A stretch of 46,240 nt of DNA, taken from contig SVDE01000006.1 of assembly GCA_015057955.1 (NCBI GenBank), positions 1-46,240 on the forward strand. The letters are read 5' to 3'. Source of the stretch: Lachnospiraceae bacterium (GTDB lineage Bacteria > Bacillota > Clostridia > Lachnospirales > Lachnospiraceae). Numbering within the stretch: position 1 is the stretch's first letter; every line of letters begins with the position of its first letter. This document shows positions 5,441 through 44,517 of this stretch, one piece after another. Under the pieces are notes generated by a model that was not told where the DNA came from, ran no database searches, and saw only the letters and a program-made list of their open reading frames with translations. A program made the position numbers and the translations under genes.

Positions 5441-5530
5441 CGAAAAAGTTGAAAAAATTCAAAGTAAAAGTGCGAAAAAGTTGAAAAAATTCAAATAATT
5501 TGCATTTTCGCTTTGAATTTTTTATAATGG
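5441..5530 (+). promoter_or_regulatory. AT-rich direct repeats and sigmaA-like promoter upstream of the DUF4143 ATPase
   Basis: CGAAAAAGTTGAAAAAATTCAAA twice (5441-5463, 5473-5495; 32 bp start to start), a partial inverted copy (5505-5523), and TTGCAT (5500-5505)-17 bp-TATAAT (5523-5528). Confidence 0.7.
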
Positions 5531-5543
5531 CTTCGAAAGCATC

Positions 5544-6869
5544 ATGTTGAACAGCAAAGTGGTGAGTGAAAAAATGTATAGAAAATTCATTGAAACCCTG
5601 AGACGGTGGGAAGCAAATAATACAAAAGAGCCGCTCCTGATTACCGGTGCAAGGCAGGTGGGGAAGACCTGGCTGATAAAGGAATTCTGTTCAAAAGAAT
5701 ACGACGATCATCTGTATCTGAACTTTGAAAGCGAGCCTCAGCTGGCAAGCATATTTGAGTCAAGTCTGGATCCAAAGGAAATAATCCGCAGGCTTGGAGT
5801 ATTTGCAGGGCGTCCGGTCAGTTCACAGACAGCATTGATATTTGATGAGATACAGAAATGTGAAAAGGCGGTTACTTCACTGAAGTATTTTTGCGAAGCT
5901 GAGGAAAACTACAGAGTGATCGGCGCGGGGAGTCTGTTGGGAGTCAAGATCAACCGATTCGAGTCGTCATTTCCGGTTGGCAAGGTTAAAGTGGTAAATC
6001 TTCCTCCAATGGATTTTGAGGAATTCCTGCTGGCGTCCGGAGAGGGGCTGCTTGCTGAAGAGATAAGAAATTCATATAACAAGATGCAAAAATTGCCCGA
6101 ATTATTGCATGAAAAGACAATTCGTCTGTACCATGATTATCTGTATGTGGGTGGAATGCCCAGATGTATTAATGACTATGTTCAGAATGGATGCGATATT
6201 TCATATTTCGATCGTGAACTGCAGGGAAACATTATCCTGGCTTATACTGCTGATATGAGCAAGTATACCTCCGGAGCGGCTGAAAGCGTCAAGATCAGGG
6301 AAATATATGATTCAGTTCCTCGTCAGCTTGCCAGAGAAAATCCTAAATTCAAATATAAGGACATACGGGGAAATGCAAATAAAAGAGATTTCCATCTGCC
6401 TCTGGACTGGCTCGTTTCTTCCGGAATTGTAATAAAAGTTGTAAAGGCGGAGCTGCCGCAAAATCCCCTGAAAGCATATGAAAATGAAAGCATATTTAAA
6501 GTCTATATGTCAGATGTGGGATTGCTTTCATTTGCAAGCGGAGTGAATTATAAGAGCTTTATTTCAGCAGAGGATAATATTTTCAAGGGCGCCATTACTG
6601 AAAACTATGTGATACAGTCCCTGGCTTCTCAGGGGCGAAGCCTGTTCTACTTCAAACCTGACGAGAGCATGGAGATAGATGTTTTACTGGAAGATGGAGA
6701 CAGCGTGATCCCTGTTGAGATCAAGTCCGGCAGACATAAACGGTCAACCAGTTTGAAAAACTATAATAACAAATTTGTTCCTCAAAAAATGATAAGGATC
6801 TCCGAAAATAATTTTGGACAGGCAGATAATCTGATATCCATACCGCTATATGCGGTTTTCTGCATCTAA
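5544..6869 (+). CDS. AAA-type ATP-binding protein with C-terminal DUF4143
   Basis: PLLITGARQVGKTWLIKEF Walker A, ALIFDEIQK Walker B, DVLLEDGDSVIPVEIKSGRHKRSTSL C-terminal PD-(D/E)XK-like motif; start may be 5574. Confidence 0.9.
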   Translation: MLNSKVVSEKMYRKFIETLRRWEANNTKEPLLITGARQVGKTWLIKEFCSKEYDDHLYLNFESEPQLASIFESSLDPKEIIRRLGVFAGRPVSSQTALIFDEIQKCEKAVTSLKYFCEAEENYRVIGAGSLLGVKINRFESSFPVGKVKVVNLPPMDFEEFLLASGEGLLAEEIRNSYNKMQKLPELLHEKTIRLYHDYLYVGGMPRCINDYVQNGCDISYFDRELQGNIILAYTADMSKYTSGAAESVKIREIYDSVPRQLARENPKFKYKDIRGNANKRDFHLPLDWLVSSGIVIKVVKAELPQNPLKAYENESIFKVYMSDVGLLSFASGVNYKSFISAEDNIFKGAITENYVIQSLASQGRSLFYFKPDESMEIDVLLEDGDSVIPVEIKSGRHKRSTSLKNYNNKFVPQKMIRISENNFGQADNLISIPLYAVFCI

Positions 6870-16614: not shown

Positions 16615-16651
16615 TATTAAGGCCGGCTTTTGTCCCGGCTTTGGCCCACAG

Positions 16652-16723
16652 CCCCTGAACGGCATGTTTTTCGGGAATTTTTTCTGAAAACAGCGCGTTC
16701 AGCTGTGAAAATGCGTTCAGGGG
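16652..16723. repeat. r-34-f element with an extra f arm (locus L3)
   Basis: CCCCTGAACG (16652-16661)-34nt-CGTTCAG (16696-) and second CGTTCAGGGG (16714-16723). Confidence 0.8.
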
Positions 16724-16732
16724 CAGAAACGC

Positions 16733-18381: not shown

Positions 18382-18460
18382 GCCGGCTGCGGGACCATGC
18401 CGGCCGCGGGATTGCATGCCGGCCGCGGGATCGCGCCGGCCACGGGATTGCATACCGGCT
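18382..18460. repeat. GC-rich tandem repeat with alternating 17/19-bp units
   Basis: gccggctgcgggaccat / gccggccgcgggattgcat / gccggccgcgggatcgc / gccggccacgggattgcat / accggctgc...; 36-bp higher-order period. Confidence 0.85.
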
Positions 18461-18611
18461 GCCTCTGATCTCAGGGTCTACATGTAAAATGTCTCTAAAA
18501 GTATTGAGATTAGAGGCAATTATAGGCGGAAACTAGTGAGATTAGAGGTGAATGTGCCTCTAATCTCATGATTTTAATTAAAAGTTATCCGAAATTACCG
18601 AGATTAGAGGC
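18461..18611 (+). repeat. Composite element r-33-f-(32)-f-r-32-f (locus L4)
   Basis: GCCTCTGATCTC (18461)-33nt-GAGATTAGAGGC (18506); GAGATTAGAGG (18538); GCCTCTAATCTC (18556)-32nt-GAGATTAGAGGC (18600). Confidence 0.9.
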
Positions 18612-18641
18612 AAACTGCTGAAACAATGGAAGAAGTAAGAC

Positions 18642-20783
18642 ATGAAACCTATACATGAAATAATAGCAGAAGAATTGAATGTAAAGCCTGAGTACGTGAA
18701 GAACGTCATCGAGCTGCTGGACGACGGCAACACGATCCCGTTCATTGCGCGCTACAGAAAGGAAGTTCATGGGAGCATGGACGACACCAAGCTCAGGAAA
18801 CTGGAGGAGCGCCTTGCTTCATTGAGGAACCTCCTTGAGAGGAAGGAGACTGTGCTCCGGAGCATTGAGGAGCAGGGTGCCCTTACCGATGAGATCGCTC
18901 GTGCGCTTGATGAAGCGCTCACGATGACAGCGGTCGAAGACATTTACAGGCCGTACCGCCAGAAGAGGAAGACCAGGGCGTCAGCAGCCAAGGAGAAAGG
19001 CCTTGAGCCGCTGGCGGAGTTCCTGCTTTCGCAGGGCGGCGGGTCGCCTTTGGATGAAGCGCTGCGCTACGTTGACGCGGAAAAAGGCGTTGCGGACGCA
19101 GATGAAGCCCTGCACGGCGCAATGGACATCATTGCTGAGAAGGCCTCCGACGACAGCAACATCCGCGCGCGCCTTCGAAACCTGGCTGAGCACACAGCCG
19201 AGCTGGCCGTCAAAGCTGCGGGCGAAGAAGACTCAGTGTACAGGCAGTACTATGAGTTCTCCCAGAGGGTGTCCCGCATGAAAGGCTACCAGGTTCTCGC
19301 GATAAACCGCGGCGAGAAGGAAGGATTCCTGAAGGTTGGTATTGCATTTGAAGACGAGAGATCAGTTGAGATAATTGAGAAAGCGTTTGGACTCAAGTCG
19401 TCACCTTCTTATGAGTATCTGAAGGAGGCGATGGAGGATTCATATAGCAGGCTCATCAAACCGTCGCTCGAAAGGGAACTGCGAAACTCCCTGACCGACG
19501 AGGCGGCTAAAGGCGCGATCGACAACTTCGCGATGAACCTGAAGCCCCTGCTCATGCAGCCGCCTGTTAAGGGCAAGGTCACGCTGGGGCTCGACCCCGG
19601 CTACACACACGGCTGCAAGGCGGCGGTCGTGGACGGGACCGGCAAGGTGCTGGACACCACGGTCGTTTATCTGACATTTTCCGAGGCACGCAGGCAGGAG
19701 GGCATGCGCGTCCTTGAAGGACTCATAAAGAAGCACGGCGTTGAGACAATCGCGATCGGAAACGGGACGGCCTCCCGTGAGACCGAGGCTGCTGTGGTTG
19801 AGATGCTGCCGCGCGCCGGCGCCGGTGTTGGCTACGCGATAGTAAATGAAGCCGGCGCGTCTGTCTACTCCGCCTCCGAGCTTGCGGCCGAAGAGTTCCC
19901 TGACTACGACGTGAACCTGAGGTCCGCAATCTCCATCGCGAGAAGGCTCCAGGATCCGCTTGCTGAGCTGGTCAAGATCGACCCGATGGCGATTGGCGTC
20001 GGGCAGTATCAGCACGACATGCCGAAGGCCCAGCTGGAAAATGCCCTCGGCGGCGTTGTCGAGGACTGCGTAAATGCGGTCGGCGCTGACATCAATACCG
20101 CAAGCCCGGCCCTGCTTTCCAGGATATCGGGGCTTACCAAGACGACCGCGAAGAACATTGTAAGTTACCGTGAAGAGAACGGGATATTTAAGAGCCGCAA
20201 GGACATCCTGAAGGTTCCAAAGCTCGGACCTAAAAGCTTCGAGCAGTGCGCCGGGTTCCTTCGCGTTCCGGAGAGCCGCGAGATCCTTGACAATACGGGC
20301 GTTCACCCCGAAAGCTACGCGGCCGCTCGTGCGCTGCTTTCGCTTTGCGGATACGGGGAAGATGACATAAGATCGCACAAGGCGGATGGCCTTCGAGCGA
20401 AGATCGAGGCGATCGGCTGGAAGAAGGCTGCTGCTGAGTGCGGCTGCGGCGTGCCGACATTAACTGACATTGCCGCCGAGCTCATGAAGCCGGGGCGTGA
20501 CCCCAGGGATGAGCTGCCGCCCACGGTGCTTAGGAAAGATGTCCTTGAGATGAAGGACCTTAAGCCCGGCATGAAGCTTAAGGGCACGGTCCGCAACGTC
20601 ACGGACTTCGGCGCTTTCGTGGACATAGGCGTCCACCAGGACGGGCTCGTCCACATCTCCCAGCTTGCGGACCGTTTCGTGAAGCACCCGTCTGACATTG
20701 TGAAGGTCGGTGACATCGTTGATGTCACCGTTCTGGAAGTCGACGAGGCAAAGAAGCGGATCTCGCTGACTATGAAGAAATGA
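18642..20783 (+). CDS. tex: Tex family RNA-binding transcription accessory protein
   Basis: VTLGLDPGYTHGCKAAVVDGTGKVLDTTVVYL (YqgF-like), HhH region, C-terminal S1 domain GTVRNVTDFGAFVDIGVHQDGLVHISQLADRFV. Confidence 0.97.
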   Translation: MKPIHEIIAEELNVKPEYVKNVIELLDDGNTIPFIARYRKEVHGSMDDTKLRKLEERLASLRNLLERKETVLRSIEEQGALTDEIARALDEALTMTAVEDIYRPYRQKRKTRASAAKEKGLEPLAEFLLSQGGGSPLDEALRYVDAEKGVADADEALHGAMDIIAEKASDDSNIRARLRNLAEHTAELAVKAAGEEDSVYRQYYEFSQRVSRMKGYQVLAINRGEKEGFLKVGIAFEDERSVEIIEKAFGLKSSPSYEYLKEAMEDSYSRLIKPSLERELRNSLTDEAAKGAIDNFAMNLKPLLMQPPVKGKVTLGLDPGYTHGCKAAVVDGTGKVLDTTVVYLTFSEARRQEGMRVLEGLIKKHGVETIAIGNGTASRETEAAVVEMLPRAGAGVGYAIVNEAGASVYSASELAAEEFPDYDVNLRSAISIARRLQDPLAELVKIDPMAIGVGQYQHDMPKAQLENALGGVVEDCVNAVGADINTASPALLSRISGLTKTTAKNIVSYREENGIFKSRKDILKVPKLGPKSFEQCAGFLRVPESREILDNTGVHPESYAAARALLSLCGYGEDDIRSHKADGLRAKIEAIGWKKAAAECGCGVPTLTDIAAELMKPGRDPRDELPPTVLRKDVLEMKDLKPGMKLKGTVRNVTDFGAFVDIGVHQDGLVHISQLADRFVKHPSDIVKVGDIVDVTVLEVDEAKKRISLTMKK

Positions 20784-20790
20784 TATGCGG

Positions 20791-21152
20791 CGCTAGGGGG
20801 TGGTTTACCCCCTAGCGTCATGTTTTTATGACATTATCTATCGAAAGTGGTACGCTAGGGGGCAATTTTGGCAGGAGCTGAGGCGTTAGGGGGCAGAAAG
20901 TGCCCCCTAGCGCCGGGGTTTGAAGGTGCCAGAGACAAAAAACAAGCCGTTAGGGGGCAATGTGCCCCCTAACGGCAGAGGTTGAATAACAAAAGTAATG
21001 GCAGAGGTCGAATAACAAAAGTAAAGCCGCTAGGGGGTGGTTTACCCCCTAGCGCCGGGGTATGAAGGTGTCAGAGACAAAAAACAAGCCGTTAGGGGGC
21101 AATGTGCCCCCTAACGGCAGAGGTCACATAGCAAAAGTAGTGCCCCCTAACG
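20791..21152 (+). repeat. Composite array of f/r arms with 35-nt spacers (locus L5)
   Basis: f CGYTAGGGGG at 20791, 20853, 20884, 20948, 21028, 21090; r CCCCCTARCG at 20808, 20903, 20965, 21045, 21107, 21143; r-to-f gaps 35, 35 and 35 nt (one gap is 53). Confidence 0.95.
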
Positions 21153-21176: not shown

Positions 21177-21761
21177 TTAAACCGGCCGCGGGCTTCCGCA
21201 GTTCGGGCAGAACTTGGTGGTGTTCTGGCTTCCGCAAGTGCAGATCCATTTGCCTTGCTCTGTGAGGAAGTTGGCAAAGATATTTGCTTCCGGAGTTACG
21301 GTGCGGATGAATTCGCCTGTGTCCTCACATTCTTTCAGCAGTTCCTCAATCTTTTCCTCAAGAGTCTTTAATGCATTGTGGTAGGAGCCGCCCTGGATGG
21401 TGACGTTGTTGCGGGTGCTGCCGCCTAAACTGCTGTCGTCAAATGTCATCCTGATCGTAACACTAACAAAATTGTCATACATCATAATGGGGAATTCTTT
21501 ATCCGCCAGTTCTTCAAGATGCTTTTCTGCGACAAGATCCCTGACTTTCTGCGCAGCTTCGGGTGTGACCAGGTATTCGTTTGCTGTGGTCTGCCCGTGG
21601 ACATTCTCGCTGATGGTGAGCACTGCCGTGCCGTCCTCCTTCCACTCAAGCGCCTTGTCAAGGCTTGAGCCTGTTCCCATCATCATTCCATTTGAAAAAA
21701 GGTTGTAACTGAATTCGATCAGCGGACCGTGGGTTTTAACGTTTAGATCAGGCATGTTCAT
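21177..21761 (-). CDS. Zinc-ribbon containing hypothetical protein
   Basis: C-terminal WICTCGSQNTTKFCPNCGSPRPV zinc ribbon. Confidence 0.7.
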   Translation of the reverse strand: MNMPDLNVKTHGPLIEFSYNLFSNGMMMGTGSSLDKALEWKEDGTAVLTISENVHGQTTANEYLVTPEAAQKVRDLVAEKHLEELADKEFPIMMYDNFVSVTIRMTFDDSSLGGSTRNNVTIQGGSYHNALKTLEEKIEELLKECEDTGEFIRTVTPEANIFANFLTEQGKWICTCGSQNTTKFCPNCGSPRPV

Positions 21762-35256: not shown

Positions 35257-35316
35257 ATGGAAGGTAAAAGCTCCTCATGAACCAGCACCTTATACAACAG
35301 TCCTTTAGACAGCTAA

Positions 35317-35370
35317 CCCCTAAACGGCATGTTTTTTAGAAATTTTATTCAAAAACATCGCGTTCAGGGG
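35317..35370. repeat. r-34-f inverted-repeat element (locus L6)
   Basis: CCCCTAAACG (35317-35326)-34nt-CGTTCAGGGG (35361-35370); inner ATGTTTTT/AAAAACAT can extend the stem. Confidence 0.85.
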
Positions 35371-35570
35371 TTGTTTGATCATTTGTCGCTTGAAAGGAGA
35401 CCTTGCCTGCTTTTAAGCGTTCTATAATGAGCGCAAAAGGAGGTAAGATCAAATCCGCCAAACCTGAAGAATAAATCCCGTTATCTCCCTCTGCCCACTG
35501 TGTATTGCGTGCGGATGTTTGGGTATATTATAGTTGAGACATGGATCCGCACACAAATAAGGAGGACAGC

Positions 35571-44333: not shown

Positions 44334-44517
44334 CGTTAGGGGGCAGTTTGCCCCATAACGGCTGGTTTAGACATGAAAATAGGCCAAAACTGCAGCGTTA
44401 GGGGGCAGTTTTGACCAGATAATGTGCGTTAGGGGGCAAAAAGTGCCCCATAGCGCACCAGCTTACATAAAATATATTAAGAAAACCTAGCGTTAGGGGG
44501 CAAACCGCCCCCTAACG
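44334..44517 (+). repeat. 184-bp composite f-r-[35]-f-(31)-f-r-[35]-f-r element (locus L7)
   Basis: f CGTTAGGGGG at 44334, 44396, 44427, 44491; r CCCCATAACG 44351, CCCCATAGCG 44446, CCCCCTAACG 44508. Confidence 0.95.

Follow-up and report, generated by a model that had tools for sequence, protein, structure and literature searches.

Conserved geometry of a dispersed composite palindromic repeat, and its local duplication downstream of tex, in an uncultured Oscillospirales species

Directly downstream of tex in a 46,240-nt stretch of DNA (the window) from an uncultured Oscillospirales species, short G-rich arms recur in alternating orientation, which raises the question of what kind of element they form and what holds their spacing. 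The exact arm CGYTAGGGGG or its complement occurs 12 times within 20791–21152, against a chance expectation of 0.15 for the whole 46-kb window, and all 12 arms lie where a first-pass annotation of the sequence had placed them. The array starts 8 bases past the tex stop codon, whose final base is 20783. Its setting is convergent, as had been described, with the gene of a 194-aa protein (21177–21761) on the minus strand. This protein has no Pfam or NCBIfam match and shares only a C-terminal zinc-ribbon-like stretch with other Oscillospirales proteins.

Table 1. Repeat elements and their parts in the window (f and r, arms in forward and reverse orientation; figures in parentheses within layouts, spacer lengths in nt).
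Feature	Position	Strand	Basis
Family C module r-(34)-f (CCCCTGAACG ... CGTTCAG) plus one more arm	16650–16724	+	
Copy of family B with arms GAGATTAGAGGC and core geometry 47/32/16/46, immediately upstream of tex	18460–18612	+	
Full-length family A element, 184 bp: f1 r1 (35) f2 (19) f3 r3 (35) f4 r4	20791–20974	+	register as in 12 other full copies in the genome
Terminal hairpin hp1 (f1:r1)	20791–20817	.	f1:r1 covariation across copies; terminator-like scan
Spacer 1, 35 nt; TTT at nt 7–9	20818–20852	.	spacer lengths, T positions
Unpaired arm f2; pairing with r3 possible over 16 nt (94%)	20853–20864	+	
Central hairpin f3:r3	20884–20912	.	
Spacer 2, 35 nt	20913–20947	.	
Terminal hairpin hp4 (f4:r4), then TTGTTTTTTG on the minus strand	20948–20974	.	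covariation; terminator-like scan
Gap, 53 nt, two near-copies of a 26-bp unit	20975–21027	+	
Second, partial block f5 r5 (35) f6 r6	21028–21116	+	
Third near-copy of the 26-bp tail, then lone arm r7 (21141–21152)	21117–21152	+	
Family C module r-(34)-f (CCCCTAAACG ... CGTTCAGGGG)	35315–35372	+	
Second full copy of family A, flanked by co-directional rubrerythrin and 2'-5' RNA ligase-type genes	44334–44517	+	

The analysis confirmed that the observation at the tex locus is genuine: one full 184-bp copy of an element that we designate family A is accompanied by a partial block produced by local duplication (Table 1). The stem of hp1 can be extended to 20789–20819 and is then followed by ATGTTTTTAT on the plus strand. 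The second block is a hybrid in which copies of hp1 and hp4, both perfect, flank a copy of spacer 2. The first-pass annotation had read the r5–f6 segment as a near-duplicate of r3–f4; this is true of the spacer (33 of 35 positions) but not of the hairpin, because 21028–21054 matches hp1 letter for letter, loop included. The 98-nt stretches 20903–21000 and 21045–21142 are identical at 91 positions, and the two near-copies recognized earlier in the r4–f5 gap are 26-bp units (20970–20995 and 20996–21021) with 92% identity.

The array had also been proposed to grow by duplication of whole units in register. Enlargement by duplication is borne out, and so is the 62-bp step within blocks. However, the f4–f5 step is 80 bp and the r6–r7 step is 36 bp, so the register is lost between blocks. 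Growth by whole units is contradicted by the hybrid make-up of the added block and by the 12 other full copies, none of which has a second block; these show only stray extra arms at irregular distances, such as those 12–24 nt after r4 on contigs C6 and C50. Near-identical arms that acted as joining points would explain the hybrid, and the tex copy was probably lengthened in this way, by strand slippage or template switching between them. The genome is a draft metagenome-assembled genome (MAG; 2.94 Mb, 263 contigs), a state in which the duplicated block might be suspected to be an assembly artefact. This is very improbable, because the two 98-nt stretches differ at seven positions and the block has a hybrid join, as a copied contig end would not, and because the full 184-bp layout recurs on 11 contigs besides that of the window.

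The hairpin pattern occurs 28 times per strand in this genome and never in the reversed control. Thirteen full copies of family A share the arm register 0/15/62/93/110/157/172, one of them with a 1-nt deletion; there are also two degenerate copies, both on contig C41, and several fragments. The arms have the sequence GTTAGGGGGC, and the hairpin in the 13 copies reads (gc)CGYTAGGGGGCR..YGCCCCCTARCG(gc). The first-pass annotation was likewise correct that the element is found elsewhere in the window, at its far end (Table 1). The window has no Rfam match above the gathering score. Apart from these elements, it contains a 34-bp AT-rich inverted repeat (5452–5523) directly upstream of the gene at 5544.

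The 13 copies of family A can be aligned without gaps except for one. Identity among them is approximately 0.89 in the arms, whereas the spacers have a median of 0.48 and a maximum of 0.71. In neutral bacterial DNA, roughly one indel accompanies every 10–20 substitutions. The spacers differ from their consensus by 417 substitutions in 1157 cells (36%), and therefore approximately 20–40 indels would be expected, but a single 1-nt indel was observed in the 13 copies. Exactly 35 nt separate the arms in 25 of the 26 spacers, in agreement with the earlier suggestion that this distance matters; random indels inside the spacers, which the same annotation had named as contrary evidence, are not the pattern among the 13 copies of this genome.

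Within the freely varying spacers, a TTT tract lies approximately 6 nt inside the arm (nt 5–10) in 45 of 52 family A half-sites, compared with 0–1 in neighbouring windows, and the spacer 1 consensus has AAA at nt 27–29. The family A consensus as a whole is a near-perfect 184-bp dyad. The AAA and TTT tracts are phased at 10.5 bp with a mean R of 0.74, above the maximum of 0.60 in 1000 spacer shuffles, and R falls to about 0.3 at 10 and 11 bp; since the copies share ancestry, this phasing is one inherited arrangement and not thirteen tests. The combination of strict length, free sequence, 10.5-bp phasing, and fixed TTT is best accommodated by a protein that reads phased, probably bent DNA.

Palindromic repeats of 27–29 nt with 35-nt spacers resemble a CRISPR array in their lengths. 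We give this explanation next to no probability, because the elements are dispersed four-site units and not a long array, spacers at the same position are homologous between loci and carry the fixed TTT and AAA, and the repeats vary with compensatory changes, in place of the near-identical repeats of CRISPR. Furthermore, none of the copies has a partner next to arm f2.

A second family, B, is present at 11 loci and has arms GATTAGAGGC in place of GTTAGGGGGC. Its core steps are 46–47/32/16/46–47, compared with 47/31/17/47 in family A, and its A/T tracts show the same 10.5-bp phasing (0.67 vs a shuffled maximum of 0.54), with a drop at 10 and 11 bp. The phasing of A and B together represents one or two inherited configurations and not 24 independent ones, and the halves of each dyad are mutually dependent. 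Family B keeps the core geometry without end hairpins. Its ends, r1 and f4, are alike (AACCTCTAAACT / AGTTTAGAGG) and unlike the inner arms. Five B loci on different contigs are 82–89% identical, suggesting a fairly recent spread. Modules of the form r-(34)-f occur with other arms at 16650 and 35315 of the window and on contig C5, and looser ones (32–37 nt) on contigs C243 and C227. TTT is placed likewise in 22 of 26 half-sites of the non-A families, again compared with 0–1 in neighbouring windows. The recurrence of modules with other arms and the same TTT placement indicates that the arm sequence changed between families, whereas the spacing and tract placement stayed.

Pair counts on the family A alignment support the local hairpins f1:r1 and f4:r4, in which nine pairs have changes in both partners (0 of 500 shuffles). 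This covariation can reflect either selected stems or template-switch correction of short quasi-palindromes. At the element centre, the pairings f3:r3 and f2:r3 are both possible and are not separable on the alignment. Two larger structures were considered and rejected: an end-to-end RNA rod, in which 74% of cells are paired but covariation does not exceed that of shuffles, and an r-(35)-f hairpin, for which r:f covariation is absent.

Genes around the copies were called by codon usage, and both neighbours are known for 12 full copies of family A. Nine of these lie between convergent genes, compared with 9 of 64 gaps of at least 40 nt on unselected contigs (Fisher p = 5e-5). For family B, an excess at convergent junctions is not clear (4/10, p = 0.07). 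The neighbouring genes are unrelated and mostly metabolic. In one copy on contig C41 (L020:1381–1564), the first arm contains the end of a convergent TMEM164-like gene and supplies its TAG, and the lyase gene opposite stops at the element border. A stop codon lies 0–24 nt from an end of the array at the tex copy and at copies on C205, C56, and C41 (C41a), leaving no room for a separate terminator, and an additional role of the outer family A hairpins in termination is thus plausible.

Whether such a role could account for the whole element is a further question. The outer hairpins of family A might end converging transcripts, as a bidirectional terminator with a T-run on the strand leaving each gene, or might protect mRNA 3' ends. 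In the tex copy, hp1 (plus strand), hp4, and hp6 (both minus strand) are terminator-like, and the scan returned four such hairpins compared with 0.7 in shuffles; in the second copy of the window, it returned one compared with 0.6. The outer tails are slightly richer in T than the inner ones (5.6 vs 4.6, p = 0.07), and the covariation of the local hairpins described above also fits. In hp1, hp4, and hp6 of the tex copy, a GC-rich stem is directly followed by a T-run, so that this copy resembles a bidirectional intrinsic terminator, with T-runs on both strands at a convergent position. However, the T-run is offset from the stem: TTT starts 7 nt past the arm in most copies (3–5 T are present), and its place is equally fixed at inner sites that have no good hairpin. 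A canonical terminator already precedes the element on C8, C88, and C122. Termination explains neither the four-site array with its constant 35-nt spacing nor the 10.5-bp phasing, and family B retains the geometry although it lacks the end hairpins. We therefore regard termination or 3'-end protection as unlikely to be the primary explanation.

Dispersal and the subfamilies of B suggest that the element has been mobile. No transposase was found by a Pfam scan among 20 proteins beside the copies. The genome has two Y1_Tnp genes, with no arms near either. The one on C37 matches IS200/IS605 at 141.7 bits and REP_Tyr at only 37.1, below the cut-off of 80, and a TnpB-like ORF adjoins it. A RAYT or IS200 enzyme was rejected as the mobiliser because the Y1 genes lie away from the arms. 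We also rejected the idea that close pairs of elements carry a gene family between them (335–339-aa ORFs on C6 and C41), since the flanking proteins are unrelated metabolic genes.

The same features could be those of a transposable repeat, either a MITE or a BIME, which is non-autonomous and has no role in the host; its geometry would then be only what a mobilising enzyme needs, and its copies would have decayed to varying degrees. The family A dyad and the matching ends r1 and f4 of family B, which differ from the inner arms, resemble the terminal inverted repeats of MITEs, and the elements are similarly short, non-coding, and dispersed with local subfamilies. The resemblance of the five B copies at separate loci, the presence of fragments and degenerate copies, and the location mostly at gene 3' ends, where insertion is least harmful, point in the same direction. 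Unlike MITEs, however, the elements contain an internal array of repeated half-sites, with spacer length conserved above sequence. No parent insertion sequence with these ends was found among the 20 neighbouring proteins, and no target-site duplication was seen by eye in the 30-nt flanks of the 13 copies. In addition, no pair of A copies exceeds 71% spacer identity, yet the arms and register are intact in all 13, which indicates constraint on the resident copies, unless the insertions are recent and stem from many old lineages. A purely transposable repeat is thus possible but doubtful.

REP and BIME sequences are well known in Proteobacteria, and their upkeep and use are still debated. These palindromes lie outside genes, alternate in orientation at regular intervals, are separated by inter-repeat segments of conserved length, and form dimers and clusters (PMC2817692, PMC3733652). 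The inter-REP sequence of BIME-1 binds IHF, and BIME-2 binds DNA gyrase (PMC2817692). Like the REP and BIME sequences of Enterobacteria and Pseudomonas, the palindromes described here alternate in orientation, are regularly spaced, and are extragenic. The REP palindrome carries a GTAG (or CGTC) tetranucleotide at one end (PMC3733652), whereas neither is present at the hairpin foot of the 13 copies. REP/BIME systems usually have more than 100 copies and a cognate RAYT gene flanked by repeats; here, there are 13 full copies of A, 11 of B, and scattered fragments, and no such gene was found. Instead of the variable mosaic of BIMEs, each element is a fixed composite of five to seven arms, which are all alike within one element and differ between families at constant geometry. 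The element is accordingly BIME-like, yet lacks the tag, the transposase, and the copy number, and is a variant of this kind and not a member. TIR-associated tyrosine transposases (TIRtrons) have G-rich, sometimes self-complementary inverted repeats (GGGGWSAS) in dimers and clusters (PMC3733652). The arms share the repetition, G-richness, self-complementarity, and grouping of these TIRs, but GGGGGCR does not fit their consensus, and no transposase gene was found between copies.

Our preferred reading, to which we assign a probability of roughly 45%, is that of a dispersed non-coding composite palindromic repeat belonging to a REP/BIME-like non-autonomous superfamily, whose register is held by a putative DNA-binding partner. 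The half-site comprises a 12-nt G-rich arm, approximately 6 nt, and TTT; two facing half-sites across 34–35 nt form a module, and two modules with an extra arm the core common to A and B. An outer arm added at each end gives family A its hairpins. Copies presumably spread as a non-autonomous mobile repeat. Recognition of phased half-sites on bent DNA by the partner may be what preserves the geometry; candidates for the partner are a nucleoid protein, the mobilising enzyme, and a topoisomerase such as gyrase. Where the flanking genes converge, the outward-facing hairpins of family A may double as weak bidirectional terminators. Reading by a protein is opposed by the fact that no binding protein or transposase was identified, and selection in family A could be acting on the terminator hairpins.

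A related proposal defines the superfamily by geometry and not by sequence: predicted bent DNA would carry five to seven half-sites at a constant helical phase. The elements would then be putative docking places for a topoisomerase or nucleoid complex at 3' gene boundaries, where the supercoils of converging transcription would collect. The arms of a family would change together, as between A and B, while the spacing and A/T-tract phase remained fixed. In this specific form, we hold it to be improbable.

What distinguishes the element is that spacing and helical phase are kept more strictly than sequence, twice and with different arms, in an uncultured lineage of gut Clostridia; REP tags are absent here, and no REP transposase was identified. 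Reading of the geometry by a protein is directly testable; if it takes place, the elements would mark topological or transcriptional gene boundaries.

None of 40 relatives yielded the hairpin, covariance-model matches in relatives were only single hairpins or chance, and the hairpin with f arm CGTTAGGGGG had no match in approximately 85,000 genome species and viral contigs, collections that may omit records very near this genome. The closest listed relatives of the same genus are only 58–61% identical in glycerol kinase, and the DegV and glycerol-kinase flanks are 41–61% identical. Because the nearest listed relatives are distant and near records are possibly omitted, the absence of the hairpin says little about its age. 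The literature searched contains no description of such elements for Oscillospiraceae or Ruminococcaceae.

Matches of the tex gene itself (18642–20783) place the genome in Oscillospirales, among gut MAGs. At 1e-100, tex has no match in 11 of 12 listed genomes of the same genus, and the match in the twelfth, at a contig end, is 66–74% identical. Loss of tex in the genus, its acquisition in this genome, or a loose genus assignment could each explain this.

Three other repeats were encountered. In a genome of the same genus, repeated arms GAGATATGAGAA surround an A/T-rich stretch downstream of a gene (L186:2000–2250; G003, contig C14), possibly as another arm family. An AT-rich palindrome array on contig C21 (L154:264–536; CCGTTTATTTTT) has an arm-to-arm step of 62 bp and may be a remote variant of this geometry. 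On contig C3 (L140:6835–6990), several copies of a 41-bp repeat (TGTACAGATTTTACGCTTGTGACCAT) lie in both orientations around a hairpin.
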